From an uncultured Porphyromonadaceae bacterium (lineage in GTDB: Bacteria > Bacteroidota > Bacteroidia > Bacteroidales > Muribaculaceae): a stretch of 38,647 bases of DNA. Positions within the stretch are counted from its first letter, which is position 1, and each line of letters starts with the position of its first letter. The position numbers and the translations under genes were made by a program. The notes beneath the pieces are model-generated. The model did not search any database, was not told where the DNA came from, and saw only the letters and a program-made list of their open reading frames with translations. Location of the stretch: NCBI GenBank assembly GCA_947575235.1, contig CANPMT010000026.1:1-38647 (forward strand), written 5' to 3'. This document shows, in pieces, positions 1,115-38,647 of the stretch.

Positions 1115-1145
1115 ATAAAATACGAAAAGATACGGGAGTTTTGGA

Positions 1146-1498: not shown

Positions 1499-1560
1499 TG
1501 CGCCGTCTGAGAGGTTCATGAAACTTGGCTCCTGGAGCAATCAACCGTCGGAGCAAGGAG

Positions 1561-1579: not shown

Positions 1580-1642
1580 ACAAAAGAAGGAGCCCAAAAG
1601 CCGCAGCCCAAAATAACACCACATCGACGACCCGTCGAAAAC

Positions 1643-20342: not shown

Positions 20343-20457
20343 TTAACGTTTATTAACATTATTAACATTGTTGGTGGTGGGTAATTCTTTGGGGGTTAGG
20401 GGGTTAGGGGGTTGGTGGTTTTTTGCTTTGGGTGGGATGGTTGCTCCTTCTTTTGTT

Positions 20458-20476
20458 GACAGGCTGGAAGCCTGTC
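20458..20476. repeat. ACAGGCT/AGCCTGT palindromic repeat copy
   Basis: Perfect 8-base arms with loop GGA, in the opposite orientation to the copies at 937-1579. The flanks are CTTCTTTTGTT before and CTCCTTGCTCCG after. It lies just after the end of the small coiled-coil gene. Confidence 0.9.
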
Positions 20477-20503
20477 CTCCTTGCTCCGTCTCCTTGCTCC
20501 GTT

Positions 20504-20917: not shown

Positions 20918-20974
20918 TTTTTTTATTTGTGTGTGGGGTTATTTTGGGGGGGGGGTTGTGCTCCTTCTTTTGTT

Positions 20975-21099
20975 GACAGGCTGGAAGCCTGTCTTCCTTG
21001 CTCCGTCTTCTGACTCCTTCTTTTGTTGACAGGCTGGAAGCCTGTCTTCCTTGCGCCTTCTTCTTGCTCGTTCTTTTGTTGACAGGCTGGAAGCCTGTC
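20975..21099. repeat. Array of three ACAGGCT/AGCCTGT palindromes
   Basis: Perfect palindromes lie at 20975-20993, 21028-21046 and 21081-21099, at a regular 53-base period, each followed by TCYTCCTTG. They fill most of the 226-base gap between queE and the coiled-coil gene. On the minus strand they follow queE and might act as RNA stems. No spacer-like unique sequences separate them, so they are not a CRISPR array. Confidence 0.9.
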
Positions 21100-21143
21100 C
21101 TCCTTGCGCCTTCTTCTTGCTCTACTACTTGCTCCGTCTTTTG

Positions 21144-21845
21144 TTAGGGGATTTGGAGGAAGCGGTGGAGCTGGACGGAGAGGGTCCAGCGGGGGTCGGC
21201 GAGGACGCGGCGGACGGTTGCGTTGCGGTTGGCGAGGGCTTGCGCCTCGTCTGGTACGTAGCAGGGCTGAAGGTACATCTTTGTTGTCTCGTCTACGCAG
21301 GGTAGCGCGAAGTAGGGTTCCAGGTCCTGACCTACATCCACTACTTTCAGTTCGTCTGCATGCGCTACCTTCAGCTCGGCCGCCTGGGCTTCGCCGGCGT
21401 GGTTGGCTTTGGCTTCTGCCGCCTGGGCTTCGCCGGCGTGGTTGGCTTTGGCTTCTGTTGCTTTGGCTTCGTTGTTGGCTTCGGTGGGCGGGGTGTGTTT
21501 GCCGACTTGGGGGGCGACTGTTACCCTGTCGATTGCGGGGGGGCGGGGGTTGGTGCCGTTGGTTTCGATGGCTACTTTCTTGCCGGTGGCTTTTTTGAGG
21601 AGCCGTACGAATTCGGAGTCGATCCATAGGGAGGGTTCACCTCCCGTCAGGATTACCCAGTCGGCCTGGTAGAGTTTGACGGCGCGGATTATGTCGTCGT
21701 CGGTCATCAGGGTGCCCTCTTCGTGGCGGGTGTCGCAGAAGGGGCATCTCTTGTTGCACCCTGAGAAGCGGACGAATACCGAGGGATGTCCGGCATGGGC
21801 ACCCTCCCCTTGCAGTGAGTAGAATATCTCGTTAATCTTTCTCAT
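21144..21845 (-). CDS. queE: 7-carboxy-7-deazaguanine synthase (radical SAM), with internal repeat insertion
   Basis: QueE converts 6-carboxy-tetrahydropterin to 7-carboxy-7-deazaguanine, a step toward queuosine. The radical SAM motif C-x3-C-x2-C is at Cys30, Cys34 and Cys37. The N-terminal Glu-Ile-Phe-Tyr-Ser-Leu-Gln-Gly-Glu-Gly and the Leu-Thr-Gly-Gly-Glu-Pro-Ser motif (about residue 67) are canonical. About residues 117-160 are an Ala/Glu/Lys-rich insert with two identical 13-residue units and a third diverged one, placed between the Thr-Val-Ala-Pro strand and the Glu-Leu-Lys-Val-Val strand, where QueE proteins are normally continuous. The ends are intact, so it is probably functional. It lies 27 bases after queD. 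Confidence 0.92.
   Translation of the reverse strand: MRKINEIFYSLQGEGAHAGHPSVFVRFSGCNKRCPFCDTRHEEGTLMTDDDIIRAVKLYQADWVILTGGEPSLWIDSEFVRLLKKATGKKVAIETNGTNPRPPAIDRVTVAPQVGKHTPPTEANNEAKATEAKANHAGEAQAAEAKANHAGEAQAAELKVAHADELKVVDVGQDLEPYFALPCVDETTKMYLQPCYVPDEAQALANRNATVRRVLADPRWTLSVQLHRFLQIP
21381..21458. repeat. 39-bp tandem duplication inside queE
   Basis: Two 39-base units (21381-21419, 21420-21458) are nearly identical, and a third diverged unit continues toward 21345. The unit length keeps the reading frame. The encoded unit is Ala/Glu/Lys/Gly-rich with Asn-His-Ala-Gly. Confidence 0.88.
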
Positions 21846-21872
21846 TGATACTCGTTGGTGTTGGATTGTCGG

Positions 21873-22205
21873 TCAATCTTTCTCGTAGATTGCTGTGTTA
21901 CCTTCGCTCTCCTGTACCTCGCAGCGCCAGCAGTTGGGGACGGTGTCAACTATCCAGCGGGCGATGTTCTCGGCTGTGGGGTTGCAGGGGATCACGTCGT
22001 TGATTACGGCGTGGTCGAGACGGTCCATGACCATCTCTTTTATGTGGGTGAAGTCGACTACCATACCGTCTTGGTTGAGCTCGGCTGCACGGCATTCCAC
22101 GGTGACAATCCAGTTGTGGCCGTGGAGGTTGGTGCATTTGCTCTTGTAGCTCAGTTCGAGACGGTGGGCAGCGCTTATTTCGAATCTTTTCTTTACGTAG
22201 TACAT
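21873..22205 (-). CDS. queD: 6-carboxy-5,6,7,8-tetrahydropterin synthase
   Basis: QueD turns dihydroneopterin triphosphate into 6-carboxy-tetrahydropterin. The 110-residue length is usual for the short bacterial form. The zinc ligands are His14 (Ser-Ala-Ala-His), His28 and His30 (His-Gly-His), and the catalytic Cys24 precedes them. The Asp-Phe-Thr-His-Ile-Lys and Leu-Asp-His motifs, and the Pro-Thr-Ala-Glu-Asn-Ile-Ala segment, complete the fold. It is followed by queE after 27 bases and preceded by a 279-base repeat-filled gap from queC. Confidence 0.95.
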   Translation of the reverse strand: MYYVKKRFEISAAHRLELSYKSKCTNLHGHNWIVTVECRAAELNQDGMVVDFTHIKEMVMDRLDHAVINDVIPCNPTAENIARWIVDTVPNCWRCEVQESEGNTAIYEKD

Positions 22206-22229
22206 TTTTTGGTTTTTTTGCGGTTTTGA

Positions 22230-22480
22230 CCGGTGGGGTTTGACCGTGGGGGGTGACCGTGGGGGTGACCGGGGGTTTGACCGGGGGTTTGACCGGTGGA
22301 CGCGCCGCGGCGCGTCCGTACGTCAAATGGGGGGGGCGGACCATGTAGGGGGGGTTGTCGCGGGGGGCGGGCCCCGGCGGGGCGCGTCCGTACGTCTGGG
22401 GGCGGGTCCGACCATGCGCGGCCGTACTTTGACCGGGGGTTTGACCGGTGGACGCGTCCGTACGTCAATTGGCGCGTCCA
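22230..22480. repeat. GC-rich repeats between queC and queD
   Basis: The gap holds short tandem TTTGACCGGGGG-type units (about 22235-22298), then a GGTGGACGCGCCGCGGCGCGTCC palindrome-type copy (22295-22317) followed by GTACGTCAA. Partial copies follow near 22381-22396 and 22447-22490. The same family appears as three tandem copies at 24011-24175. No gene is visible; long frames here are repeat artefacts. Confidence 0.82.
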
Positions 22481-22484
22481 CAGG

Positions 22485-23141
22485 TTAATTGTCGTAGGGG
22501 GTGGGGTCGGGGATGCCGGCTTCGGCGAAGGCCTCGCGGCGCTCGACGCATGTTCCGCATTTGCCGCAGTGCCGCTCCCCACCCTTGTAGCAGGAGTAGG
22601 TGTGGGAGAAGTCCACGCCGATGCGGTGGCCGAGTCGGGCGATGTCGCCTTTGGTGATGTTGGTGAATGCGGCCTCGATGGTGACGCCGTCGTATGTGCC
22701 GGCCTTCATGGCCTGGCTCATGGCGTCGACGAATTCGGGACGGCAGTCGGGGTAGATGGCATGGTCGCCGCCGTGGTTGGCCATCATCACGTGTTTCAGA
22801 CCGCGGGATTCGGCGAGTCCGCAGGCTATGGAGAGCATGATGCCGTTGCGGAAGGGTACGACGGTCGATTTCATGTTGTCGTCGGCGTAGTGTCCTTCTG
22901 GTATGGCGTCGGCTCCGCTGAGGAGGGAACTGCGGAAGTATTTTGCCATGAAGTCGAGGGGTATGACGAGGTGTTCGATGCCGAGCAGGCGGCATTGTTG
23001 GGCGGCGCACTCGATTTCACGGGCGTTGTGGTTTGAGCCGTAGTCGAAGCTTACGGCGAGGGCTATGCGGTCTTTGCGGTAGTGGAGGAGGGTTGTGCTG
23101 TCCATACCGCCTGAGAGGATTATGATTGAGTCTTTTTGCAT
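22485..23141 (-). CDS. queC: 7-cyano-7-deazaguanine (preQ0) synthase
   Basis: QueC uses ATP and ammonia to make preQ0 from 7-carboxy-7-deazaguanine. The ATP-pyrophosphatase loop Leu-Ser-Gly-Gly-Met-Asp-Ser is at residues 9-15. The zinc-binding Ser-Cys-Tyr-Lys-Gly-Gly motif with three further cysteines (Cys-Gly-Lys-Cys-Gly-Thr-Cys) lies at about residues 184-199. The Pro-Phe-Arg-Asn-Gly-Ile-Met motif is also present. Length (218 residues) is typical. Its stop lies within the edge of a repeat region. Confidence 0.95.
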   Translation of the reverse strand: MQKDSIIILSGGMDSTTLLHYRKDRIALAVSFDYGSNHNAREIECAAQQCRLLGIEHLVIPLDFMAKYFRSSLLSGADAIPEGHYADDNMKSTVVPFRNGIMLSIACGLAESRGLKHVMMANHGGDHAIYPDCRPEFVDAMSQAMKAGTYDGVTIEAAFTNITKGDIARLGHRIGVDFSHTYSCYKGGERHCGKCGTCVERREAFAEAGIPDPTPYDN

Positions 23142-23163
23142 TGTTTTTGCTCTTTCTTTGGGT

Positions 23164-23297
23164 ACAGGCTGGAAGCCTGTGTTCCTTGCTCCTTATTTTG
23201 TGACAGGCTGGAAGCCTGTGCTACTTACTCCTTCTTTTGGTACAGGCTGGAAGGATGTGGTTCTGGCTCCGGCTTTTGTTACAGGCTGGAAGCCTGT
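23164..23297. repeat. Array of four ACAGGCT/AGCCTGT palindromes between queF and queC
   Basis: Copies lie at 23164-23180, 23202-23219, 23242-23258 (degenerate in its right arm) and 23281-23297, spaced about 39 bases. They occupy nearly all of the 184-base gap. Orientation matches the copies at 20458-21099. Confidence 0.9.
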
Positions 23298-23325
23298 GCT
23301 CCTTGCTCCGTCTTCTGGCTGCTTA

Positions 23326-23793
23326 TTAGAGGGTGCGGAAGTAGGCTTCGCGGCGGGAGAGGAGGAGGGCCTGGTGGTCGGGGTCGGCCATGTTGGCGAA
23401 GGGGTGGATGGAGATGCCACCACGGGGCATGAAGATGCCGCGTACCTCGATGTATTTGGGATCCATGAGGCGCCAGAGGTCTTTCATTATGATGTTGACG
23501 CAGTCTTCATGGAAGTCGCCGTGGTTGCGGAAGCTGAAGAGGTAGAGCTTGAGACTCTTGCTCTCTACCATGCGCTGGCGGGGTATGTAGGATATGATGA
23601 TGCGGCCGAAGTCAGGCTGGCCGGTCTTCGGACAGAGGGTTGTGAACTCGGGGCAGTCGAAGGTTACGACGTACTCGTTCTCGGGGTGTTTATTTTCAAA
23701 GGTCTCGAGGAGACCGGGGGCGTAGTCGGTAGGGTAGGTTGTGCCTTGGTTGCCTAACAGCGTCACGCCTTCTAATTCTTGTTCGTTCCTCAT
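23326..23793 (-). CDS. queF: NADPH-dependent 7-cyano-7-deazaguanine reductase
   Basis: QueF reduces preQ0 to preQ1. This is the short, single-domain form (155 residues). The catalytic Cys54 lies in [13 protein letters not shown], which also gives Asp61. The QueF motif Glu78-Ser-Lys-Ser-Leu-Lys-Leu-Tyr85 binds NADPH, and Phe-His-Glu-Asp-Cys-Val-Asn supplies the substrate Glu96. With queC, queD and queE it completes the path from dihydroneopterin triphosphate to preQ1; tgt and queA are not in the window. A 400-base gap with large inverted repeats lies upstream, and no preQ1 aptamer was seen there. Confidence 0.95.
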
Positions 23794-23863: not shown

Positions 23864-23989
23864 GAAAGCCTCCAACTATTACAACTATTAACAACTAATT
23901 TTTATTACAACTAATAGTTGTTAATAGTTGTAATAGTTGGTGTTGCACCACAACGTAGTTGTTAATAGTTGTAATAGTTGGAGGCTTTC
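23864..23989. repeat. Three-armed inverted repeat upstream of queF
   Basis: The 34-base left arm (23864-23897) is exactly complementary to 23956-23989. Its last 26 bases are also exactly complementary to a second right arm at 23915-23940. Only one of the two long pairings can form at a time. The arms are built from TAGTTGTTAATAGTTGTAAT-type A/T-rich sequence. It lies 71-196 bases upstream of queF, between it and the zinc-ribbon gene. The rest of this 400-base gap is the palindrome array at 24011-24175. Confidence 0.9.
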
Positions 23990-24010
23990 AAACAATTTTA
24001 TTGTAATGGT

Positions 24011-24175
24011 TGACCGGTGGACGCGCCGCGGCGCGTCCCTACGTCGATTGACGTGTGGTTTTTTTGACCTGTGGACGCGCCACGGTGCGTCCCTACGTCA
24101 ATTGACGCGTGGGTGGTTTTTTTTGACCTGTGGACGCGCCGCGGCGCGTCCCTACGTCAACGCGTGGGTGTTTTT
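24011..24175. repeat. Three tandem GGACGCG/CGCGTCC palindromes
   Basis: Three units of about 55-58 bases each hold GTGGACGCGCC then GGCGCGTCC or a diverged form, followed by CTACGTCAATTGACG-type sequence and a T-run. The stems are strong and each is followed by 7 T on the plus strand, so they look terminator-like in that direction although no plus-strand gene precedes them. Related copies lie between queC and queD. Confidence 0.88.
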
Positions 24176-24193
24176 TTGCCGGGTGGTAGTTGG

Positions 24194-28735: not shown

Positions 28736-28781
28736 CCTCCGGGGCCGTGGCCCCGGAGGCGGGGGACTGAGACCAATGAGC
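28736..28781. repeat. Palindromic element copy A4 (intergenic)
   Basis: The 24-base inverted repeat 28736-28759 has GGGGCCGTGGCCCC as its core. It is followed by a conserved tail at 28765-28781 (GACTGAGACCAATGAGC) that matches 13 of 17 bases of the tail in copies A1 and A2. A tandem-repeat tract follows directly on the same side. Confidence 0.85.
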
Positions 28782-28925
28782 CTTAGCTCTTGGCCTTCGC
28801 CTTAGCCTTCACTTTAGCCTTGGCCTTAGCTCTTGGCTCTTGGCTCTTGGCTTTGGCTTCTGGCTTTGGCTTCTGGCTTTGGCTTCTGGCTTCTGGCTTT
28901 TGGCTCTTGGCTTTGGCTTTTGTAT
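28782..28925. repeat. TTGGCTCT/TTGGCTTCTGGC tandem-repeat tract upstream of manA
   Basis: A degenerate array of short units (TTGGCTCT, TTGGCTTCTGGCT) runs for about 140 bases. On the minus strand one frame stays open through it, encoding a Lys/Ala/Ser/Gln/Pro-rich peptide that ends at a stop at 28783-28785, with no start codon. The 329-base gap 28690-29018 contains this tract, the palindromic element A4 and an A/T-rich leader for the small plus-strand gene. Confidence 0.8.
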
Positions 28926-29018
28926 TTGCTTGCGCAAACCGGAGGGGAGGAGAGGGCGTTATTATTATAACGATGATTTATTACAAATCAGATGATTGTT
29001 TATTAAAAATATCAGATT

Positions 29019-29255
29019 ATGAGTGACATTCTTAATGCTGAGGAGAGGAAGGAGCTTCCTGACAGCCTCTATGGTCTTCCCGAGAGAAGAGAGTATCCTA
29101 TGCCTGACGCGGCTCATGTGAGAGCCGCTGAGGCTTATTTCCGTTATTGCCCGGAGGAGCTTAAGCCGAAGTTGGCGAGGGCTATCCTGCGGTTCGCCCG
29201 CCAGTATGGCGTCGATGTCGAGAGCCCTACGGTGCTCTCATATGCCGCTGAGTAA
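29019..29255 (+). CDS. Small conserved-looking protein of unknown function
   Basis: This 78-residue protein is the only plus-strand gene in the right half. It has no signal or membrane segment. The pattern Glu-Arg-Lys-x-Leu-Pro-Asp-Ser-x-Tyr-Gly-Leu-Pro, then Tyr-Pro-Met-Pro-Asp-Ala-Ala-His-Val-Arg-Ala-Ala, then Phe-Arg-Tyr-Cys-Pro, is a recognisable motif in small proteins and in tails of phage-type proteins (DUF6582-like, from memory and not certain). The ATG at 29019 is preceded by an A/T-rich stretch. A roughly 29-base unit starting at the 3' end of the gene (GCCGCTGAG then AATAGCTTTCC) is repeated 2-3 times to about 29310. Confidence 0.7.
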   Translation: MSDILNAEERKELPDSLYGLPERREYPMPDAAHVRAAEAYFRYCPEELKPKLARAILRFARQYGVDVESPTVLSYAAE

Positions 29256-29340
29256 TAGCTTTCCCTTGCTCGCCGCTGAGGAATAGCTTTCCTTTGCTTC
29301 GCCGCTGAGGTTGCTTCGGCGCCGGGGTTGCTTGGCGGGG

Positions 29341-30411
29341 TTAGTCCTCGTCGGGTGGCTCCGGGAGGGGGAGGTCTTTCAGCAGGTCGATCGCGTGGTC
29401 GAGGATGGCGTCCTTGCCCGCCGCGAGTTCTTCGGGGAGGGAGTGTACCTCATGTCCTTCGGACGGGTCCACCCCCTCCTCGATGCATTCTCCCTCCGGG
29501 GAGAGGAGGGGACAGGCCGAGAAGCGTATCGACCAGCCGATGGGCACCTCCGAGGAGAAGGGCAGCCCCCCGCCTCCACCGGTCTTCGCCCCCACGACTG
29601 TGACGTTGGGGAGGCTCTTCATGACCGAGGTGAAGTCGTTGGCCGCCGAGAAACATGAGCGGTTGGTGAGAAGCACTACCGGACCGTCCCACTTGATGCG
29701 TCCCGGTTCAGCGGGTTCGTATTCAACGGGATACGGCTCCGAGAAGTCGCCGTGCCCCGGCCCTGTCTTGTGCAGGATGTATCCGCCGGTAATCTTGTGG
29801 TCGATGAACCGTCCCACGAGGGTAGATATATTTGTGAGGGCACCCCCGCCGTTGTCGCGGATGTCGATTATCAGTCCGCGGCTGTTGTGAAGGATAGCCA
29901 GGATATAGTCGAGCGACGTCTCCCCGACAGTATACGAGAAGGAGGGGTAATACATATAGGCAATCTCCCCAGGGAGCTGCTTATACATTATGCCGCTTGT
30001 GGAGAGCCAGTTGAACTCCAGGTAATTCTCCTGCAGAGTGCGCAGGTTGAAATCCTGGGGGTAGGCCGTCCACCACTCGCGGTAATAGCTTGTGTCATAG
30101 CGCGAAGAGAGATTTACATGTCCGTCGCGCAATTCATTGATCATGGCCGAGCAGATGAAGAAGAGGTCGATCGAGGTCGTCTCCTCGTCGATCAGGGCGC
30201 GGTAACGCTCTCCGATGTCGGCCCAGTCGATATCCTTCTCGCGGAAGAAACAATAGCGCTGGTCGACAATCTCCCAGAGGGCGTCGAAATTGCCGTAGAG
30301 GTCGTTGCCGTAGTCGGGTTCGTCGTGGCATGACGGGAGGAGGGTGAGAGCCATTCCCACTCCGACGGTCAGCGCCGCCTTGCGTATTATATTACGTTTC
30401 ATCTTCATCAT
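29341..30411 (-). CDS. S41-family (C-terminal processing-like) serine protease lipoprotein
   Basis: This 356-residue lipoprotein (lipobox Leu-Pro-Ser-Cys28) has a helical N-terminal region (about 35-130, with Leu-Arg-Asp-Gly-His-Val) and a tail-protease core. The core holds Ile-Asp-Ile-Arg-Asp-Asn-Gly-Gly-Gly (about 180), then Asn-Arg-Ser-Cys-Phe-Ser-Ala-Ala-Asn, whose second Ser near residue 256 is the likely nucleophile, and Gly-Ala-Lys-Thr-Gly-Gly-Gly-Gly near 281. No PDZ domain is evident. It probably cleaves envelope proteins at the periplasmic face. Its ATG shares one base with the stop of the upstream gene (TGATG), indicating coupled translation. Confidence 0.88.
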   Translation of the reverse strand: MMKMKRNIIRKAALTVGVGMALTLLPSCHDEPDYGNDLYGNFDALWEIVDQRYCFFREKDIDWADIGERYRALIDEETTSIDLFFICSAMINELRDGHVNLSSRYDTSYYREWWTAYPQDFNLRTLQENYLEFNWLSTSGIMYKQLPGEIAYMYYPSFSYTVGETSLDYILAILHNSRGLIIDIRDNGGGALTNISTLVGRFIDHKITGGYILHKTGPGHGDFSEPYPVEYEPAEPGRIKWDGPVVLLTNRSCFSAANDFTSVMKSLPNVTVVGAKTGGGGGLPFSSEVPIGWSIRFSACPLLSPEGECIEEGVDPSEGHEVHSLPEELAAGKDAILDHAIDLLKDLPLPEPPDED

Positions 30412-31289
30412 CAGTAAATTGAATAGACCACCTCCGACGGTATACGGTTGGGACGCTTCTTCAGACCGATACCGCCCGGTATGACACCGATCACGAAACT
30501 ATGGCTCGTCAGGCGCGTGTTGAGCTGACAGGCCCATTGCGTGTAAGCCTCGAAACGGTAGCCTACGGTCATGGCCGTGCGACCGAAATCGAGAGTGGCC
30601 GAGAGGAGGTTGTCGATACGGAAATTGTTGCCCCACCAGCCGCCGTGGAGGAGTCCTTTGTGGTTGCCGAGGTAAATCTCATAGTAAGTCTCGCCATATT
30701 CAGGCGAGAAGAAGAGGCTTGCCGAGGGGAGGCGTACCTCGTCGCGCAGCAGCACCGGGAGGCGGCCGATGCGGAAGGGCCGCGACACGGAGGCCCGCAG
30801 CGAGAGCGAGACGTTGGCGATGGCCTCGACCGGGTTGTTGCCGTTGCGCAGCAGCCAGTATGCGCCGCCATAGATACCCACGGCACCACCCGCTGTCACC
30901 TGTATGTCGTAAGGGAGACGGGTGCGCCACGACATACCCCAGTTGAAATCGGCCGTCAGACCCACCATCGAGGCGGTCTGCGCCGGGTTGAGCATACGCG
31001 AGAAGTGGGCCGCGCCGTCAAACTGCATCACGGCATGTTCCGGGGAGAAAGGCATCGCCTTGCTCCATTCGCCCGACACTCCGTAGCGCGTACCCTTGTA
31101 ATGGAGGGGGGAGAGATAGGTGGCCAGCACGTCGTGGCTGCCCATCTCGACGGCATAGACCGACGTGACAGGTCGCGACTCACCGCCCGGGAGCGAAGTC
31201 TTGCTCTGGGCTGAAGCCTCGCTTTGGGCGAAAGCCGGGAGGGCCGAGGCTGCCATAAGCAGGCCGGACAGTAGTTTATGCTTCATCAT
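30411..31289 (-). CDS. DUF3316-like outer-membrane protein
   Basis: This protein of about 292 residues has a signal peptide (residues 1-22, ending Ala-Phe-Ala-Gln). I chose the ATG at 31289 because it directly precedes that signal; a longer frame from 31331 adds 14 residues that spoil it. The start overlaps the last codons of parC by 14 bases. The body is rich in alternating strands and aromatic residues, and the segment Val-Tyr-Ala-Val-Glu-Met-Gly then Thr-Tyr-Leu-Ser-Pro-Leu-x-Tyr-x-Gly resembles DUF3316. It is probably a beta-barrel outer-membrane protein. Its linkage to the protease suggests a joint envelope role. Confidence 0.78.
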   Translation of the reverse strand: MMKHKLLSGLLMAASALPAFAQSEASAQSKTSLPGGESRPVTSVYAVEMGSHDVLATYLSPLHYKGTRYGVSGEWSKAMPFSPEHAVMQFDGAAHFSRMLNPAQTASMVGLTADFNWGMSWRTRLPYDIQVTAGGAVGIYGGAYWLLRNGNNPVEAIANVSLSLRASVSRPFRIGRLPVLLRDEVRLPSASLFFSPEYGETYYEIYLGNHKGLLHGGWWGNNFRIDNLLSATLDFGRTAMTVGYRFEAYTQWACQLNTRLTSHSFVIGVIPGGIGLKKRPNRIPSEVVYSIY

Positions 31290-34200
31290 CGGGTGTGGGA
31301 TTTTCAGTAGGGATAGAGCCGGAGGTGTCATCGTCAGGGAGCGCGAAGAGGTCGCCCATCACCACCTTCGGGTTCTGGCTCTCCTCCTGAGGCTCCTCCG
31401 GTTCGTCGGGTGTCTCCGGCTCCGGCTCCGGTTCCGGTTCGGGAGGGAAGCGGAGTGGTTCGAGTTCGGTGATCTCCCCGATGGTATAGGTGGATATACG
31501 CTTACCTTTAGCCTTGAAGCTCTTCACACCGATAAATTCCTCAGCGTCAATCTCAAGCGACGGACGGATCTCGTCGGCGCCGCCGAACTTCACCCCGATG
31601 CGCGGGTAGAAAGTGTCGGTGAGCAGGATGATTGAGGAGGAGGCATCCGTGCCCACGAAACGCTGCGGTTTGGCCGAGGGCTCGAACGCGAAACGTTTCA
31701 GGTAGGGGAAGCCCAACGCGCTGTCGTTGAGCGCGAGGGTCCATATCTTGTGCGGGTCGAACTTCTCGATCCGCAGGATGTTGTCGTCGTAATGGTTGGA
31801 ATCGGCGAAAGATGAGGTGAAGAACTCGCCGGTCTTCGTGATGATGAGCACGAGGTCGTCGCCCTGGAACACGCCGAGACTCTCGCCGCGCCCGTCATAG
31901 TTGAGACGGAGCACGTCGCGGTCGAACCATACCTCGCGTCCGCCGAGGGTGCTCGAGCCCTTCTCCACGAGTCGGACGTCGTCGATCTGATACTTCGTGA
32001 CGAGATTGCCGAGCGATTCCTTACCCTTGATGTCGAGGTCGGCGAAATTCACCATCACCTCCTTGGCGCGTGGACGGCGCCCGGTCTCGTTCGGTTCATC
32101 CTTGAGCACCACCTTCACCACCTCAGCCTCGCCGTTGGGGTTGCAGGTGAGCCACTCCACGCGCGAGCCCGGAAGTCCCTTGGTGAGGGTGTACTCCTTC
32201 TCGCGGGTGAGACCCGTGATGAAGAAACGCTTCTTGTAGGAATAGGCATCCTTGCCGCCGTTGCGGTAGATCACGTTATATACCGTGCGCTTGTCACCCT
32301 TCTTGAAGAGGCCGATGTGTATGATCTTCTTCCCGACGTAAAGCTTATCCTGCACCTTTACAATCTTGTACGTGCCGTCGCGGTAGATTATCAGGATGTC
32401 GTCGATGTCGGAGCAGGTGAAGAGGAACTCGTTATCCTTCAGACCGGTGCCGACGAATCCGCCCGACTTGTCGAAATAGAGGCGTTTGTTAGCCTCGGCC
32501 ACCTTCGCCGCCTCGATCGAGTCGAAGCCGCGCAGGGCCGTACGGCGCGGGAACGCCTCGCCATACTTCTCCTTGAGGTGGGCATACCATGCGCAGGTGT
32601 ATTCCACGATATGGTCGAGGTCGAACTGGAGACGCTCGATATCCTTCTGGAGGGCCGCTATACGTTCGTCGGCCTTCTGCGAGTTGAACTTCAGTATACG
32701 TCCCATCTTGATTTCCCAGAGACGCACAAGGTCGTCGCGGGTCACCTCGCGGAAGAAATCCTTCTTGAAGGGGTCGAGGCGTTTATCCACATGGGCGATT
32801 GCCGCGTCCATGTCGGTGGCCTCCTCCACCTCCTTATCCTTATATATACGCTCCTCGATGAATATTTTCTCGAGCGAGCAATAGAGGCGTGTCTCGTGGG
32901 TCTCGCCGAGTTTGATCTCAAGTTCGCGGCGGAGCAGTTCGCGGGTATGGTCGACAGAGAAGCGTAGCAGTTCGCTCACCGTCATGAACTTCGGTTTGCG
33001 GTCGACAATCACGCAACAGTTTGGTGAGATGCTCACCTCGCAGTCGGTGAAGGCGTAGAGGGCGTCGATAGCCTTGTCGGACGATGTGCCCGGGATGAGA
33101 TGCACGAGGATTTCAGCCGTGGCGGCCGTGTTGTCATCGACCTTCCTGATCTTGATCTTACCCTTCTCCATGGCCGAGAGGATAGAAGAGATAAGAGTGG
33201 TGGTGGTTTTGCCGAAGGGGAGTTCGGTTATGGAGAGTGTCTTGTTGTCGATTTTCTCGATTTTCGCGCGCACTTTCACGCTGCCGCCGCGTGCGCCGTC
33301 GTTATATCGCGAGGCGTCGAGCAGACCGCCGGTCTGGAAGTCGGGGATAAGTCGGAAGGGTTCGCCGTGGAGGTAAGCCGTGGCGGCGTCGCATATCTCG
33401 TTGAAGTTGTGGGGGAGGATCTTCGAGGATAGACCTACGGCGATACCCTCCACACCCTGTGCGAGGAGTAGGGGGAACTTCACCGGGAGGGTTACCGGTT
33501 CCTTCTTGCGGCCGTCGTAAGAGGGGGTCCATTCTGTGATTTTGGGGGAGAAGACGGTCTCGAGGGCGAATTCCGAGAGGCGTGCCTCGATGTAACGGGG
33601 AGCGGCTGCGGAGTCGCCGGTGAGGATGTTGCCCCAGTTACCCTGGGTGTCGACGAGCAGTTCCTTCTGGCCGAGCTGCACGAGGGCATCGCCGATCGAG
33701 GCGTCGCCGTGGGGGTGATACTGCATGGTGTTGCCCACGATGTTGGCAACTTTATTGAATCGGCCGTCATCGAGGGTCTGCATAGAGTGCAGGATGCGTC
33801 GTTGTACGGGTTTGAGACCATCCTCAATGTGGGGGACGGCTCGCTCGAGAATAACATAACTGGCATATTCGAGATACCAGTTTCGGAACATTCCGGAAAG
33901 GACTGTCTTTTTGTCGGTGATGGTTGCCTCGCCTGTCGGCTCCTGGGCTGAGGAAGTTAGCTCAGCGGACGGCTCCTCTGCCGCGGAGGTTAGTTTTGCT
34001 TCGGGCTCCTCAGCCGCGGAGGTTAGCCTGGCTTCGGGCTCCTCTTCCGAGGAGGTTAGCTTGCCTTCGGGCTCCTCTGCCGCGGAGGGTAGCTTGGCAT
34101 TTGCCTCCTTTGCCGAGGAGGTTAGTTTGGCAGTGCGCTCCTTTTTGGGGGAGGTTAGCTTGGCAGTTGGCTGCTGGTCGGAGCCGTTGGGCTGTTTGGC

Positions 34201-34299
34201 TTCGGGCTGCTGATCGGAGCCGTTGGGCTGTTTGGCAGTCGGCTCCTGGTCGGCGGGGTTATTGGTTGCGTTGTCTGGTAATTCAAAATCTTCGGCCAT
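31276..34299 (-). CDS. parC: DNA topoisomerase IV subunit A with repeat-rich N-terminal tail
   Basis: This 1007-residue protein is the DNA-cutting subunit of a type IIA topoisomerase that separates daughter chromosomes. The catalytic core starts near residue 130 (Tyr-Ala-Ser-Tyr-Val-Ile-Leu-Glu-Arg-Ala-Val-Pro), with His-Pro-His-Gly-Asp near 185 and the active Tyr near residue 236 in Ala-Pro-Arg-Tyr-Ile-Glu. C-terminal beta-pinwheel blades follow to about 930. Lack of a clear GyrA-box and overall similarity to Bacteroidetes ParC favour topo IV. The first 127 residues are an extra tail: two QPNGSDQQP units then seven 11-12 residue Lys-Leu-Thr-Ser-type units. The C-terminus is Pro/Glu-rich. parE is not in the window. 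Confidence 0.93.
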   Translation of the reverse strand: MAEDFELPDNATNNPADQEPTAKQPNGSDQQPEAKQPNGSDQQPTAKLTSPKKERTAKLTSSAKEANAKLPSAAEEPEGKLTSSEEEPEARLTSAAEEPEAKLTSAAEEPSAELTSSAQEPTGEATITDKKTVLSGMFRNWYLEYASYVILERAVPHIEDGLKPVQRRILHSMQTLDDGRFNKVANIVGNTMQYHPHGDASIGDALVQLGQKELLVDTQGNWGNILTGDSAAAPRYIEARLSEFALETVFSPKITEWTPSYDGRKKEPVTLPVKFPLLLAQGVEGIAVGLSSKILPHNFNEICDAATAYLHGEPFRLIPDFQTGGLLDASRYNDGARGGSVKVRAKIEKIDNKTLSITELPFGKTTTTLISSILSAMEKGKIKIRKVDDNTAATAEILVHLIPGTSSDKAIDALYAFTDCEVSISPNCCVIVDRKPKFMTVSELLRFSVDHTRELLRRELEIKLGETHETRLYCSLEKIFIEERIYKDKEVEEATDMDAAIAHVDKRLDPFKKDFFREVTRDDLVRLWEIKMGRILKFNSQKADERIAALQKDIERLQFDLDHIVEYTCAWYAHLKEKYGEAFPRRTALRGFDSIEAAKVAEANKRLYFDKSGGFVGTGLKDNEFLFTCSDIDDILIIYRDGTYKIVKVQDKLYVGKKIIHIGLFKKGDKRTVYNVIYRNGGKDAYSYKKRFFITGLTREKEYTLTKGLPGSRVEWLTCNPNGEAEVVKVVLKDEPNETGRRPRAKEVMVNFADLDIKGKESLGNLVTKYQIDDVRLVEKGSSTLGGREVWFDRDVLRLNYDGRGESLGVFQGDDLVLIITKTGEFFTSSFADSNHYDDNILRIEKFDPHKIWTLALNDSALGFPYLKRFAFEPSAKPQRFVGTDASSSIILLTDTFYPRIGVKFGGADEIRPSLEIDAEEFIGVKSFKAKGKRISTYTIGEITELEPLRFPPEPEPEPEPETPDEPEEPQEESQNPKVVMGDLFALPDDDTSGSIPTENPTPDDEA
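33935..34260. repeat. In-frame 33-36-bp tandem repeats in the 5' end of parC
   Basis: GAGGTTAGCTTGGCTTCGGG-like units of 33-36 bases repeat about seven times, and a different 33-base unit (encoding QPNGSDQQP) twice at the 5' side. All unit lengths are multiples of three. Confidence 0.9.
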
Positions 34300-34323
34300 A
34301 GTTCACTTAAGTGGAATTTGGCG

Positions 34324-34354
34324 TAAAGTTAATAAAAAAAAGCCGCAAATGCAA
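34324..34354 (-). promoter_or_regulatory. parC: Candidate parC promoter overlapping the upstream terminator
   Basis: On the minus strand TAACTTTA (34331-34324) is one base off the -7 consensus TAnnTTTG, and a TTG (34354-34352) lies 20 bases upstream, a good distance for the -33 element. The start codon would be about 20 bases after the start site. The elements lie inside the A2M terminator stem and T-run. Confidence 0.4.
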
Positions 34355-34373
34355 ATTGAATTGCATTGCGGCT
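34334..34373 (-). terminator. Rho-independent terminator after the alpha-2-macroglobulin gene
   Basis: On the minus strand AGCCGCAATGCAA pairs with TTGCATTTGCGGCT (one bulged base, 6-base loop) and is followed by 8 consecutive T. It separates the alpha-2-macroglobulin transcript from parC. The 520-base gap 34300-34819 also holds two tandem-repeat arrays and a palindromic element, which would form a long 3' untranslated region. Confidence 0.88.
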
Positions 34374-34390
34374 GTAATTGCAGCTATAGT

Positions 34391-34473
34391 GAGAGAGGGA
34401 GGCATTTTGATTGAGAGAGGGATGTATTTTTATTGAGAGAGGGATGCATTTTTATTGAGAGAGGGTGTATTTT
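34391..34473. repeat. 22-bp tandem repeat, about 3.8 copies
   Basis: Units of the form GAGAGAGGGATGCATTTTTATT repeat almost perfectly four times, just before palindromic element B1 on the plus strand. The unit length is not a multiple of three, and there is no gene here. Confidence 0.9.
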
Positions 34474-34481
34474 GTAGGGAC

Positions 34482-34521
34482 GACACCATCGGGTCGGGGA
34501 CCCGATGCACGAACGAGAGAC
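34482..34521. repeat. Palindromic element copy B1 (intergenic)
   Basis: ATCGGGTC (34488-34495) pairs with GACCCGAT (34499-34506). It is preceded by CACC and followed by GCACGAACGAGAGAC (34507-34521). Both flanks are identical to those of copy B2 inside the alpha-2-macroglobulin gene. Confidence 0.88.
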
Positions 34522-34557
34522 AACCTCCAACTCCGGGACATTCAACATCCAAATCCG

Positions 34558-34710
34558 TGTGATAAGCCTCCCCTCGGTGTGATAAGCCTCCCCTCGTTGC
34601 GATAAGCTGCCCCTCGTTGCGATAGCCTCCACTCGTTGCGATAGCCTCCCCTCGTTGCGATAGCCTCCCCTCGTTGCGATATGCTGCCCCTCCGTGCGAT
34701 AAGCCTCCAC
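34558..34710. repeat. 19-20-bp tandem repeat, about eight copies
   Basis: Units of the type CCTCCCCTCGTTGCGATAAG repeat about eight times with small changes. They lie on the same side of element B1 as the arrays that follow the other palindromic elements. Confidence 0.9.
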
Positions 34711-34819
34711 TCTGGACGGGGAAGCAGCTAAGCTTGGGAGGGTGCCGATTTGGGGAAGGCGGCAGATTTGAGGGAGGCTTCAGATTGGGGGAGGAGAGGC
34801 AGAAGATACTGGAGGAATG

Positions 34820-37800
34820 CTACAAATCGGAGAGATTGGCTTCTTTCAAAAGCACTTTCTTGTTGGGGGCCAGGAGGTAGATTGTCGGCATTGTGTCGAA
34901 GACGTAGGTCTCATTCTCCTGTATAGGATCGAGGGCGAAGCCTACGGTCCAGTCTTCCGGGAGAGCCGGAGCTGTTTCATCCCATAGTTCGCGGTCTTCT
35001 TCGGTGTCGATGGCCATGATTGTGTATTTCTCCTCATATTCTCCATTTCTTAGAGTTTCGATTACCTCCTGGCAGTGGTCGCAGTCGGGGTCGTAGAAAA
35101 GCAGAAGGATATTCTTCTTGCTCTTCAACTTGTGGAGCGACTGTTTTTTGCCGTCGCGGGTTGTGAAGGAGAAGTTGGCGGCCTTGGTGCCGGGACGGTT
35201 CTTGGCTGCTATTTCGGCACGGTAAGCTGCGCGGAGCTTGTCGGCTTCCGACTGAGGTGCAGACTGGGGTGCTACCGACCCATGGGGCCGTGGCCCCATG
35301 GGGGTTGACTTAGACGACTGAGCTTGTGCGTCGCTTGGCAGCGCGGGATTGGCATCGGCTCCTGCATTTGCTTGTGCATTTGCTTGTGCTTCGCTTGGCA
35401 GCTGGGCGTTTGCTTGTGCTTTGCTTGTCTGCAGGGCATTGGCTTGTGCTTCGCTTGGCAGCTGGGCGTTTGCTTGAGCTTTGCTTGTCTGCTGAGCATT
35501 GGCTTGAGCTTTGCTTGCCTGCAGGGCGTTTGCTTTTGCTTTGCTTGTCTGCAGGGCTTTGGCTTGTGCTTTGCTTGCCTGCTGGGCGTTAGCTTCTGCT
35601 TTGCTTGTCTGCGGGGCGTTGGCTTGTGCTTTGCTTGTCTGCTGAGCATTGGCTTGAGCCTTGCTTGACTGCGCGGGTTCGACTGTTATCTCCTGGCCGG
35701 CGGAGTGGGCGGCGGTGAGGTCGGAGAGGCGGCTTACGGCTGAGGCTATGCCTAAGGCGTAGGTGCCGGCACGGTCGATGTGGCAGTCGTAGGTTATTGT
35801 GTGGGTGCCTTTGGGGAGGAAGGGGATGAAGAATGTGGTGCGTGTGTCGCGCACTTCACGGTAGGCACCGAGGCTGTTGCTGCCTGGGGAAGGATGGCTG
35901 CCGATGGAGGCGTTGCTGCCGAAGGCGGGATGGAGAACGGAGCCGGCGTAGCCGGAGAGCTGGTTGTCGGGCTCGAGGCAGGCTGAGCGCTCGTCGGTGA
36001 GCTCCACGTAATCCATGTCTTTGGCGGCGGTTATCGTGAGGGTGATTCTCACTTTGTCGCCGACGTGATACGGCACCATCGGGCCATGGCCCGATGCACG
36101 AACGAGAGACGGCTCAGAGCTATTGCCGGCTTGGGGTGCTTGTGAGGCGGGGCTATTGGCAGTTTGGGTGGCTTCTGAAGCTGGGGTATTGGCTGAGAGA
36201 GCGGCTTCAGAGGCGGGGGTATTGCCGACTGGGGCGGCTTGCGTGGGGGCGGTATTGTCGGGGGGGAGGAGGGTGAGGGTTTTGGTGATGGAGAGGTTGG
36301 GGCTGGCAGCGGCTTTTACGCCAGCTATGGGGGCGACGTAGGTGCTGACTATGCCTCCCCAGGCTGGGCCTTCGGAGGTCTTGACAATCTTCAGCTCTTT
36401 GCCTGAGGCGGCTTTTGCCTCAATCGGAATGGTGAAGGAGCCGGTGTTGAACCCTTGGGGCCATGGCCCCAAGGTGACCGACTTAGACGACTGAGCCTGG
36501 GCATTTGCTTGGGCTTGGGCTTTTGCTTGGGCATTTGCTTTTGCTTGGGCATTTGCTTTTGCTTGGGCATTTGCTTGGGCCTGTGCGTTTGCTTGAGCCT
36601 GGGCGTTGCTTGGCTGGAGGTTGATAGGCTTGCCGTTGAGGGTTATTTCGGGAATAGATGTTGCTCCTGTCCAGTCTGTGCCGGGGGTCTGGCTTGTGCC
36701 GGCTGAGAGGATGGCGGAGGTGATCTCGACGGTGTAGGGGCGCGTTGACCAGTCTTCGGTCTCTTTCTGGAGTACGAGCCATTGACGGAGACCGTCTATG
36801 GCTTCCGTATTATCGGTGGTTTGGGCAGTTTTGGCTGCGGCAGCCTGGGTGGTTTGGGCTGCGGTTGTGTGGGCAGTTTGGGCTGCGGTGGTCTGGGCTG
36901 TCTGGGTTGTCTGGGCTGGGGTTGTCTGGGTTGCGGTGGTGAAGGCTTCGAGGACACGGGCTGTTGTGAGGAGGGAGTTCATGCCCATGGGGCCGGAGGC
37001 CAGATTGTCATACCACCAGCCTCCTGTGGGGGTGTGGGAGGCATATTGCTTCAGCGATTCCAGAATCTGTGCCGTCGCTTCCTTGGCTTTGGTGTTTTGC
37101 TGGCTTGCTTCGGTGTTTTGCTGAGCTACTTCGGCATTGGGCTGAGCTGCTTCGGCGCGGGTGAGGACGATTGCTGCTGTGGCTTTGTCGTAGATGCTGA
37201 AGTTGCGCCATTCGTTGATTATGGCATCGATGGCTGCTTTGTAGAGGGTGAGGAAGGCGGGGACAGCTGACCCTTGGGGCCGTGGCCCCAAGGTGGAGGA
37301 CTTAGACAGCTTAGCTGAGTTTGCTTCCTGGGGTGAGGGGGCTTGCTCGGCTGAGTTTGCTTCCTGGGATGAGGGGGCTTGCTTAGCTGTGTTTGGCTGT
37401 TTTGCCGGAGTGAGGCATTGCTGGCGGGCGTAGAGATAGCGGAGGAGGTCGGTGGTGGAGAATTTGTAGTTGTTTTTTTGCCAGTTTTGTACGTATTGGC
37501 CGTCACAGTAGGCTATGGCTTTTGTTAGCATGTCGGCGCAATCGGCGGGGAGGGCGCCGTTTTGTTGCATCGCTCCGAAGTTTGTCAGGGCGCTGACTGT
37601 CATGTAGAGGGATGAGTTCATGCCGGGGCACCAGCTCCAACCGCCGTCGGCGTTCTGGAGAGCTTTGATGCGCTCCAGCAGAGAGGGAAGTGCTGCACTG
37701 TATGTGGCTGCTGCTGCCTGAGAAGCTGCTGCCTGAGAAGCTGGTGTCTGAGAAGCTGCTGCCTGAGAAGCTGGTGCCTGAGAAGCTGGTGCTTGGGAAG

Positions 37801-38647
37801 CTGGTGCCTGATTGGCTGGTGCTTGAGAAGCTGCTGCCTGATTGGCTGCTGTTGTCTGGGTAGCGGCTTCGGTTGCCGGAGTTGTTGCCGGGGTTGAGGG
37901 CGGCATCGGGGTGTAGAGGGTGAGGAGGTGGGCGGCGAGGGAGTTGGCGTAGAGGGCCCGGGTTAGGGCGAGGATGTTGTCGGAGTCGGGGGTGGCGACT
38001 GCGGGGAGGGAGTTGAGGCATTCCCACACGGGGTTGTTGCAGTATTTCAGCGTGAGGGTCGCGTCTTTGCGGTATTTGGGGAGGCGTATGGTGAATTCGC
38101 CCGGGTTGAGACCAAGGTAGAATTGGGTGGCCTCGGTTACGGGTGTCGAGGAGGGGAGAACCGGTACCGTTGTCTGTTCGCCGTCGGAGTGGTTGCCTCC
38201 TATTGCATAGGCCCTTACAATCAGATCGGTGCAGTCGGAGGGGGTGTCGAAGTCGAGGGTGAGGGTGCGGTTGGCGGAGGGGAGGAGGCGCTCGGGACGG
38301 GAGGTGACTGTGGCTACGGTCTTGCCGGTGGCGGGGTTGATCACCTCGATGCGGCCCGATATGTCGAGCGGTTTGTCTGAGTTGTTGAAGAGGGTGGCCG
38401 AGATTGTGGCCTTGTCGCCCGTGCGCAGATAGCGCGGCTGGTTCATGCTCACCATTACCGGTTTCGACGCCGTGGCGTCGAGCATGAGTGTCGTGGTGAG
38501 GAGCGAGTCGGTGTAGCTGACGAGCTGGAACTGCCAGGTGGTGTTGAGGTCGGGCGTCGTGAAGTCGACGTTAAGCATACCCTCGCTGTCGGTTGTGAGA
38601 GTGGGGTAGAAGAAGGCTACGGGATGTGTGAGCTCGTGGGTCTTCAC
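34820..38647 (-). CDS. Alpha-2-macroglobulin-like protein fused to a thioredoxin-like domain (5' end outside window)
   Basis: The visible 1275 residues are the C-terminal part; the frame runs off the right edge. The start of this part has macroglobulin-type beta strands (Met-Leu-Asn-Val-Asp-Phe, Pro-Arg-Tyr-Leu-Arg-Thr-Gly-Asp). Then comes a thioester-domain-like helical region (Asn-Pro-Val-Trp-Glu-Cys, Gly-Gly-Trp-Ser-Trp-Cys-Pro-Gly) without the Cys-x-Glu-Gln thioester, and a receptor-like final domain (Leu-Pro-Lys-Gly-Thr-His, near Ile-Thr-Val-Glu-Pro). A linker of roughly 120 residues of 10-residue repeats leads to a TlpA/DUF5106-like thioredoxin domain with Cys1189-Asp-His-Cys1192. Bacterial homologues trap proteases in the envelope. 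At least six Ala/Gln/Ser/Thr/Asn-rich tandem-repeat inserts and four translated palindromes enlarge the gene, mostly in loops. Confidence 0.85.
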   Translation of the reverse strand: MKTHELTHPVAFFYPTLTTDSEGMLNVDFTTPDLNTTWQFQLVSYTDSLLTTTLMLDATASKPVMVSMNQPRYLRTGDKATISATLFNNSDKPLDISGRIEVINPATGKTVATVTSRPERLLPSANRTLTLDFDTPSDCTDLIVRAYAIGGNHSDGEQTTVPVLPSSTPVTEATQFYLGLNPGEFTIRLPKYRKDATLTLKYCNNPVWECLNSLPAVATPDSDNILALTRALYANSLAAHLLTLYTPMPPSTPATTPATEAATQTTAANQAAASQAPANQAPASQAPASQAPASQAAASQTPASQAAASQAAAATYSAALPSLLERIKALQNADGGWSWCPGMNSSLYMTVSALTNFGAMQQNGALPADCADMLTKAIAYCDGQYVQNWQKNNYKFSTTDLLRYLYARQQCLTPAKQPNTAKQAPSSQEANSAEQAPSPQEANSAKLSKSSTLGPRPQGSAVPAFLTLYKAAIDAIINEWRNFSIYDKATAAIVLTRAEAAQPNAEVAQQNTEASQQNTKAKEATAQILESLKQYASHTPTGGWWYDNLASGPMGMNSLLTTARVLEAFTTATQTTPAQTTQTAQTTAAQTAHTTAAQTTQAAAAKTAQTTDNTEAIDGLRQWLVLQKETEDWSTRPYTVEITSAILSAGTSQTPGTDWTGATSIPEITLNGKPINLQPSNAQAQANAQAQANAQAKANAQAKANAQAKAQAQANAQAQSSKSVTLGPWPQGFNTGSFTIPIEAKAASGKELKIVKTSEGPAWGGIVSTYVAPIAGVKAAASPNLSITKTLTLLPPDNTAPTQAAPVGNTPASEAALSANTPASEATQTANSPASQAPQAGNSSEPSLVRASGHGPMVPYHVGDKVRITLTITAAKDMDYVELTDERSACLEPDNQLSGYAGSVLHPAFGSNASIGSHPSPGSNSLGAYREVRDTRTTFFIPFLPKGTHTITYDCHIDRAGTYALGIASAVSRLSDLTAAHSAGQEITVEPAQSSKAQANAQQTSKAQANAPQTSKAEANAQQASKAQAKALQTSKAKANALQASKAQANAQQTSKAQANAQLPSEAQANALQTSKAQANAQLPSEAQANAQANAGADANPALPSDAQAQSSKSTPMGPRPHGSVAPQSAPQSEADKLRAAYRAEIAAKNRPGTKAANFSFTTRDGKKQSLHKLKSKKNILLLFYDPDCDHCQEVIETLRNGEYEEKYTIMAIDTEEDRELWDETAPALPEDWTVGFALDPIQENETYVFDTMPTIYLLAPNKKVLLKEANLSDL
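35279..35323. repeat. Palindromic element copy A1, inside the A2M gene
   Basis: The 24-base inverted repeat 35279-35302 (core GGGGCCGTGGCCCC) is followed at 35307-35323 by GACTTAGACGACTGAGC. In the gene's frame it encodes Ser-Ser-Lys-Ser-Thr-Pro-Met-Gly-Pro-Arg-Pro-His-Gly. A repeat array adjoins on the high-coordinate side. Confidence 0.9.
35330..35690. repeat. 30-bp tandem array in the A2M/thioredoxin linker
   Basis: About eleven diverged 30-base units encode the 10-residue repeat Ser-Lys-Ala-Gln-Ala-Asn-Ala-Gln-Gln-Thr and variants. It lies between the last macroglobulin-type domain and the thioredoxin-like domain. Confidence 0.9.
36078..36110. repeat. Palindromic element copy B2, inside the A2M gene
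   Basis: ATCGGGCCATGGCCCGAT (36078-36095) is a perfect palindrome, followed by GCACGAACGAGAGAC (36096-36110), identical to B1. The core GGGCCATGGCCC is also that of copy A2. In frame it encodes Ser-Leu-Val-Arg-Ala-Ser-Gly-His-Gly-Pro-Met-Val. Confidence 0.9.
36118..36265. repeat. About 33-bp array following element B2
   Basis: Three to four diverged units encode Ala-Asn-Thr-Pro-Ala-Ser-Glu-Ala-type repeats within the alpha-2-macroglobulin gene. Confidence 0.75.
36453..36496. repeat. Palindromic element copy A2, inside the A2M gene
   Basis: The perfect 22-base palindrome 36453-36474 has core GGGGCCATGGCCCC. The tail GACTTAGACGACTGAGC lies at 36480-36496. It encodes Ser-Ser-Lys-Ser-Val-Thr-Leu-Gly-Pro-Trp-Pro-Gln-Gly in frame. 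Confidence 0.92.
36497..36615. repeat. 18-bp-type array following element A2
   Basis: Units such as GCATTTGCTTGGGCTTGG repeat about seven times and encode alternating Ala-Gln-Ala-Asn and Ala-Lys-Ala-Asn. Confidence 0.88.
36815..36950. repeat. Gln/Thr/Ala tandem array in A2M
   Basis: Units of about 15-18 bases (GTTTGGGCTGCGGTTGTG-like) encode Ala-Gln-Thr-Thr repeats in a probable loop. No palindromic element adjoins this array. Confidence 0.8.
37065..37155. repeat. 21-bp array in A2M
   Basis: Three to four 21-base units (GCTTCGGTGTTTTGCTGGCTT-like, one base shown beyond the 20-base core in some copies) encode Gln-Asn-Thr-Glu-Ala-Ser-Gln-type repeats. Confidence 0.75.
37272..37315. repeat. 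Palindromic element copy A3, inside the A2M gene
   Basis: The inverted repeat 37272-37293 (core GGGGCCGTGGCCCC) is followed by the diverged tail GACTTAGACAGCTTAGC (37299-37315). In frame it encodes Leu-Ser-Lys-Ser-Ser-Thr-Leu-Gly-Pro-Arg-Pro-Gln-Gly. Confidence 0.9.
37316..37400. repeat. Two-copy array following element A3
   Basis: A unit of about 42 bases beginning GCTGAGTTTGCTTCCTGGG occurs twice and then decays. It encodes Ala-Pro-Ser-Pro-Gln-Glu-Ala-Asn-Ser-Ala-type sequence. Confidence 0.82.
37695..37870. repeat. 15-bp tandem array in A2M
   Basis: About eleven units of GCCTGAGAAGCTGGT type encode Ala-Ser-Gln-Ala-Pro repeats in the region preceding the helical thioester-like domain's Trp-rich segment. 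No palindromic element adjoins this array. Confidence 0.9.

Follow-up and report, generated by a model that had tools for sequence, protein, structure and literature searches.

A family of hairpin elements with tandem arrays on the tail side, and a possible link to a divergent REP-associated transposase, in a Muribaculaceae genome

The stretch of DNA analysed here, called the window below, comprises all 38,647 nucleotides (bases 1-38647) of contig CANPMT010000026.1, or C26 in our numbering, from an uncultured Porphyromonadaceae bacterium of the family Muribaculaceae (assembly GCA_947575235.1, a draft of 3.32 Mb in 135 contigs, 90% complete). The named homologues of its proteins come from metagenome-assembled genomes of Muribaculaceae, Muribaculum and Bacteroides, which by itself makes a place in the Muribaculaceae very likely. 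Our subject is a set of short elements, in each of which a hairpin is followed by a tail and the tail by a tandem array, together with a transposase gene on another contig (C14) that has two elements of the same consensus beside it.

Elements and arrays in the window

A preliminary description of the sequence had claimed six hairpin-tail-array elements (A1-A4, B1 and B2), and all six could be confirmed, on the plus strand between positions 28736 and 37315. They are given here with their arrays, whose coordinates are those of Tandem Repeats Finder (TRF), and with the open reading frame (ORF) that holds four of them.

28736-28759, tail to 28781, plus strand: element A1, between divergent genes, namely a mannose-6-phosphate isomerase-like gene (minus strand) and a small plus-strand ORF
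28779-28922, plus strand: A1 array of TTGGCTCT-like units, TRF periods 6-20, beginning 2 bp inside the tail end
34390-34473, plus strand: 22-bp array on the hairpin side of B1, an exception to one-sidedness
34487-34507, tail to 34521, plus strand: element B1, intergenic, between a topoisomerase IV A-like gene and an A2M-like gene
34561-34712, plus strand: B1 array, 19-20 bp unit, beginning 40 bp past the tail end
34820-38647, minus strand: host ORF, 1275 aa, running off the window
35279-35302, tail to 35323, plus strand: element A2, within the minus-strand ORF, where its A2M-like part meets the thioredoxin-like part
35363-35672, plus strand: A2 array, 30-bp unit, TRF start 40 bp past the tail end
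36077-36096, tail to 36110, plus strand: element B2, inside the ORF, its hairpin edge being the edge of a 52-aa insertion
36121-36240, plus strand: B2 array, 33-bp unit, beginning 11 bp past the tail end
36453-36474, tail to 36496, plus strand: element A3, inside the ORF, at one end of a 51-aa insertion
36492-36613, plus strand: A3 array, 18-bp unit, AQANAQAK protein linker, beginning 4 bp inside the tail end
37272-37293, tail to 37315, plus strand: element A4, inside the ORF, at a 42-aa insertion
37309-37395, plus strand: A4 array, 36/18-bp unit (a unit of about 42 bases had been claimed, which TRF does not bear out), beginning 6 bp inside the tail end

It had also been claimed that the array is always on the same side of the element. 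All six elements indeed have an array on the tail side, starting at most 45 bp from the tail; as 7.9% of the non-array positions in 28-38.6 kb are also that close to an array start, six of six would be expected by chance with a probability of about 2.5e-7. The tail side is the exclusive one in five of the six, because of the 22-bp array at B1. The region as a whole is rich in arrays: 28-38.6 kb holds 12 of at least 60 bp, and 800 kb sampled from 20 other contigs of the genome hold 29, with arrays covering 16.7% and 0.6% of the sequence, respectively. Of the 13 merged arrays in 28-38.6 kb, seven lack an element at the left end. Since all six elements lie on one strand, the window alone cannot separate polarity of the element from polarity of the strand. 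The sole Rfam match in 28.6-38.6 kb (E 0.31, under the gathering score) was taken as chance.

Four of the elements (A2, A3, A4 and B2) lie antisense within the 1275-codon ORF, which the preliminary description had not remarked. The encoded protein has an A2M domain (residues 11-96), a bMG10 domain (859-970) and a C-terminal AhpC/TSA-like part with an E-value of 3.2e-4, below the cut-off. Relative to nine of 20 relatives, there are in-frame insertions of 42 aa (A4), 51 aa (A3) and 52 aa (B2), each comprising the array with all or part of its element; the codons of the A4 hairpin align with residues of the relatives. A2 and its array, which encodes an in-frame linker of AQANAQxxSK type, join the A2M-like part to the thioredoxin-like part (window 34823-35668), and in five relatives the latter is found as separate open frames of 260-342 aa. 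Every element within the gene has an array, and there are three more insertions (20, 38 and 20 aa) and an array at 37710-37841 that have no element, so that repeat growth in the A2M-like gene does not need one. Among 120 listed of 229 homologues none exceeds 59% identity, which left no strain-level comparison by protein search, the candidates being 0.55-1.75 times the query length, a range in which a full-length strain orthologue (an estimated ~2450 aa) could be missed.

The neighbouring topoisomerase IV subunit A-like gene (minus-strand ORF 31276-34299) has an N-terminal extension of more than 100 aa (window 33938-34253) made of 33- and 36-bp arrays without a palindrome. Its homologues, among 120 listed, cover 68-89% of residues 1-400 and have at most 975 aa, versus 1007 here.

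One element family and a transposase gene

Types A and B had been considered possibly related, and this is borne out by a common stem and tail consensus of A1-A4, B1, B2 and the two C14 copies. It reads C-NNN-GGG-N-C, a loop of 2-3 nt, G-N-CCC-NNN-G, 10-12 nt and AGAC; the AGAC is invariant (8/8), and A1 departs from the consensus by one letter, a T replacing the first C. In the 9-bp stem all 72 of 72 cells are Watson-Crick and five of the nine positions are changed on both sides among copies, as counted by script in eight copies first noticed as palindromes, a selection that favours pairing. A search with the consensus pattern, demanding no pairing at the N positions, returned seven places, and in these all N positions pair. 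The compensatory changes may come from selection or from palindrome-correcting mutation.

Across 61 genomes of the genus the full consensus occurs at just those seven distinct places, all in the genome of the window (A2, A3, A4, B1, B2 and the two on C14), with no match in the 60 others. Likewise, the core GGGGCCRTGGCCCC is found at five places in its own genome, four in the window and one, tail-less, on contig C81, and in 0/60 of the other genomes. A genome-wide dispersed repeat can be rejected, as the core and both tails are nearly confined to the window contig: apart from the six elements of the window there are the two next to the transposase gene and a single tail-less core. The last (C81, L003:2750-3400, CCTTTGGGGCCATGGCCCCAAAGG) lies downstream of a tRNA-Cys gene and has arrays on both sides. 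A tail match on C17 was dropped, since on reading there was no hairpin beside the tail. A virus-borne element was likewise rejected, the A core-plus-tail and the B tail having no match in viral contigs and the transposase none in phages. A broad scan of genome contigs, from which the genome's own records were possibly excluded, gave one unrelated Geodermatophilus match, taken as chance.

The pair on C14 accompanies the following gene.

C14:20948-21934: transposase gene, 328 codons

The first element copy is 95 bp downstream of it and the second, array included, about 260 bp downstream. The best family match of the protein is to the REP-associated tyrosine transposases (RAYTs; REP, repetitive extragenic palindrome), NCBIfam NF047646, at 23.6 bits and E 3.9e-5; the curated cut-off is 80 bits, and we therefore describe the protein as a divergent relative rather than as that equivalog. 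It has the HUH motif and catalytic tyrosine of the Y1 fold, both invariant in 22 of 22 sequences. A search of 5.8 billion proteins returned six, all matching the REP-associated family at E <=1 (best 1.9e-13), and a homologue 97% identical to the C14 protein is named RayT by its source. An AlphaFold model of this homologue (mean predicted local distance difference test score, pLDDT, 86; built on six sequences) has an IS200/IS605-type HUH domain and a C-terminal domain matching DprA-like proteins, and the profile matches of the C-terminal part are DprA-like and weak, with one unrelated enzyme scoring among them. The C14 enzyme is thus predicted, largely from the model, to be an HUH nuclease fused to a DprA-like domain.

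The setting is that of a RAYT, in that the gene is flanked by palindromic elements (two, downstream) with copies elsewhere in the genome (the six of the window). The C14 pair faces inward, in the order hairpin, tail, array (28-bp unit), tail, hairpin, so that the side of the array follows the tail in both orientations and not the strand. At about 64 bp from the hairpin of one copy (Ca) there is an additional short 22-bp array.

The same genome holds other palindromic repeats. One, GGAG-GACAGGCTTCCAGCCTGTC, occurs at window 919-1607 and 20427-23327 and at L080:1359, 2102 and 2153 (contig C18), often in tandem and at contig ends, and on C18 it lies beside another Y1 transposase gene; repeat and gene together make up a REP system of more canonical kind. 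No side bias is seen for the abundant GACAGGCT..AGCCTGTC repeat, which flanks a Y1 gene on C18; two canonical-type REP families of this genome, with few copies, show none. A third palindromic repeat, GTAGGGACGCGCCGCGGCGCGTCC, has the GTAG tag of canonical REPs and is often in tandem (window 22289-22327 and 24010-24176; L100:3673-3828 and 19885-19974). At window 23864-23989 there are nested inverted repeats of 26-48 nt (CCAACTATTACAACTATTAACAACTA) with short spacers.

Polarity and arrays in related genomes

Homologues of the C14 transposase at 24-43% identity are present in 31 of the 61 genomes (its own being counted in both numbers), with one to five matches each; most align over most of their length and some are fragments. 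Many relatives have, beside these homologous transposases, elements that are unrelated in sequence and of the same build. A script detected inverted pairs with a tandem array between them at nine of 50 transposase loci and at none of 20 control loci; it missed the C14 pair itself, whose tails differ. Arrays numbered 93 at the transposase loci (203 kb) and 11 at the control loci (221 kb), the latter all being centred on one gene and perhaps array-poor for other reasons. In the initial survey of these loci gene orientation was not uniform and the labels 'UP' and 'DOWN' may be swapped, which does not affect the nine of 50. At L121, L122, L129 and other transposase loci each homologue seems to go with a separate element sequence. 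Little sharing was seen from species to species, a pattern suggestive of fast co-evolution of transposase and element.

In one relative (G013) such an element has 49 dispersed copies, 27 forward and 22 reverse, some of them around the transposase gene. Among the 27 isolated copies, arrays within 100 bp are confined to the tail side in 14 and to the hairpin side in none, while one copy has them on both sides and 12 on neither. The table has 51 rows for 49 places, since copies cut by a contig end or by Ns can appear twice, and 'isolated' excludes the 24 rows with another copy at most 400 bp away. A recount with a separate script gave the same result. As four of the isolated copies have a common hairpin-side flank and two have units that carry another hairpin, about ten plain cases are independent, all on the tail side. 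Non-coding sequence is about equal on the two sides: under a crude ORF mask the hairpin side has 1330 bp of non-coding sequence and 115 bp of array and the tail side 1346 and 1216 bp, with L205 and L222 having hairpin-side array bases. A second such family has three tail-only, no hairpin-only and one two-sided case among nine (two arrays being shared), and a third has five tail-only and one hairpin-only among 11 rows; the CAAAAGC family counts 11 rows for 10 places.

The fixed polarity claimed for the window is thus real, as judged from the inverted pair on C14 and the isolated G013 copies. The suggestion that the element marks or provokes local repeat growth also survived, in that the G013 arrays are not equally frequent on either side.

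In several G013 copies the array starts 8-9 bp inside the tail end and thus has units that reproduce the last bases of the tail (starts were first examined in 30 of the 49 places). The four copies with the common upstream flank (L188, L191, L204 and L205, with a 5S rRNA upstream of one) are copies of one REP-plus-array cassette; their arrays range from 112 to 396 bp and differ in unit order, and they constitute a natural experiment on array growth. Array starts inside the tail and the differences between these arrays together favour growth in place over transport of a finished array.

Known systems, alternative explanations and a proposed mechanism

The preliminary description knew of no described element with this layout, which is too strong, since in appearance the elements are REPs of an atypical family next to a transposase gene of REP-associated type. 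According to the excerpts of the literature on which this comparison draws, REP/RAYT (TnpA-REP) systems likewise have short hairpins with one-sided unpaired sequence (PMC3733652, PMC6006769, PMC8266576), which occur both next to a Y1 HUH transposase gene and at a distance from it, singly or as inverted doublets. Tail-tail doublets with variable spacers (PMC3733652) and REPs inside genes (PMC3733652, PMC6006769) are reported there as well. The elements described here differ in having no GTAG or CGTC tag at the hairpin foot (on the tail strand all 8/8 copies read GTCT, 10-12 nt, hairpin, without the canonical tetranucleotide), in having 10-12 nt and AGAC as a tail, in their few copies, mostly at one locus, in their tail-side arrays, and in the predicted DprA-like C-terminal domain of the C14 transposase. 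Within the TnpA-Y1 classification, subclass 2.6 is the closest by description, with Bacteroidetes genes flanked by 'atypical secondary structures' that have copies elsewhere; its signature is NH[LIV]H, WQ, YIH[QN]NP and 179 aa (PMC6006769), whereas the C14-type protein has PDHAH, WE and YISDNP, 328 aa and an extra C-terminal domain.

REP doublets forming hairpins (REPINs; PMC3116915, in part) resemble C14 and the nine loci of the relatives in having two inverted elements with a spacer, which here, in contrast, is a tandem array. The inverted doublet is not the dispersed unit in this genome, as only C14 has a pair, all six window copies standing alone and pointing the same way. Similarly, BrickBuilt of Porphyromonas gingivalis, a miniature inverted-repeat transposable element (MITE) that holds a minisatellite, is also from the Bacteroidales and has an array between inverted ends; it differs in its IS5-type ends, in one constant 23-nt unit and in being always intergenic, and the excerpts of PMC4596501 report no link to a Y1 transposase. 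A minisatellite of constant unit between two inverted ends is not what the window holds, where units differ from copy to copy and each copy has one end. Rickettsia palindromic elements reportedly lie in frame inside protein genes, as here, and we know of no arrays at them. They are CGTC-tagged and without a dedicated transposase (PMC3733652, in part). In the titles and abstracts of the literature searched, mostly open-access, and in the passages drawn on, we found neither fixed-side arrays at such elements nor any fusion of a Y1 transposase or RAYT with a DprA-like domain; DprA as a word is absent from the main text of the classification paper (PMC6006769).

One may consider that the arrays are cargo, element and array being one mobile unit (a REPIN or MITE-like doublet with a minisatellite spacer) moved as single-stranded DNA (ssDNA), with the single copies of the window as one-ended relics. 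The inverted pairs that enclose arrays at C14 and in the relatives agree with this, as do the absence from nine relatives of the arrays of the A2M-like gene with most of their elements, the coincidence of the B2 hairpin edge with an insertion edge, and the word AQANAQ common to the A2 and A3 arrays. However, units vary between copies, several arrays start inside the tail, the G013 copies with a common flank differ in array length and order, and not only are the six window copies single, 27 of 51 G013 rows are isolated too; we therefore regard cargo as unlikely, if by no means far-fetched. Plain replication slippage, in which any stable hairpin stalls the fork and arrays form beside it without the transposase, would account for the richness of the region in arrays and for the seven of 13 without an element, and elsewhere in the genome six of 29 arrays lie at most 60 bp from a palindrome (some terminator-like), against 3% expected. 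Yet slippage at a symmetric hairpin should follow fork direction, whereas the polarity follows the tail in both orientations, at C14 and in G013; the canonical-type REP hairpins of the same genome, few as they are, have no side bias, and array starts inside the tail again speak against it. It appears improbable.

Two further explanations concern the window itself. Selection for low-complexity linkers, by which the arrays are favoured surface loops of the A2M-like protein and the palindromes incidental, fits arrays that are in frame, lie between conserved segments and in several cases have no element. It is nonetheless very improbable, given that A1, B1 and their arrays are intergenic, that the same architecture recurs beside the transposase genes of relatives and that the compensatory stem changes argue for a signal at the DNA level. 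As for an artefact of a metagenome assembly, the draft has 135 contigs and is 90% complete, and arrays are hard to assemble; but no stop codon interrupts the 1275-codon frame at any of seven insertions (with the fused C-terminal part counted as the last), and the layout recurs in other genomes of the genus, and we give this explanation hardly any credence.

On balance, we lean towards a reading in which the window elements and the C14 pair are one family that the C14 enzyme probably recognises, and in which a predicted ssDNA nick on the tail side would make the arrays grow. Behind it stand the shared consensus, the compensatory stem changes, the location beside the transposase gene, the tail-side arrays in both orientations, the like polarity of the unrelated G013 element and the inverted pairs that enclose arrays at homologous loci. 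Cleavage by HUH enzymes yields a 5' phosphotyrosine and a free 3'-OH that may be rejoined or serve as a primer for replication, and the enzyme of E. coli cuts at CT 5' or 3' of its REP (PMC8266576, in part). The C14 enzyme would recognise the hairpin-tail elements and nick single-stranded DNA at or near the tail end, leaving a free 3' end that would re-copy the adjacent sequence. DprA binds and anneals single-stranded DNA and loads RecA, and the DprA-like domain may anneal or bridge single strands, allowing slippage during repair to add units. Arrays in the A2M-like gene would have survived only if in frame and free of stops, as loops between conserved segments.

Neither the origin of tandem repeats in bacteria nor the role of RAYT enzymes in the cell is settled. 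A far-reaching version of our reading, which we put forward as a doubtful conjecture, is that the RAYT-DprA fusion is a tandem-repeat writer, nicking the tails of its own hairpins and, by means of its annealing domain, actively building new arrays of changing unit both between genes and in frame in surface-protein genes, and thereby driving the diversity of repeats and protein loops across the genus in gut Muribaculaceae. Even short of this, a transposase-linked element with arrays on a fixed side would make the birth of repeats directly testable, with a defined enzyme, a defined DNA signal and a predicted nick position, and would reveal how repeats can come to lie in frame within protein genes.

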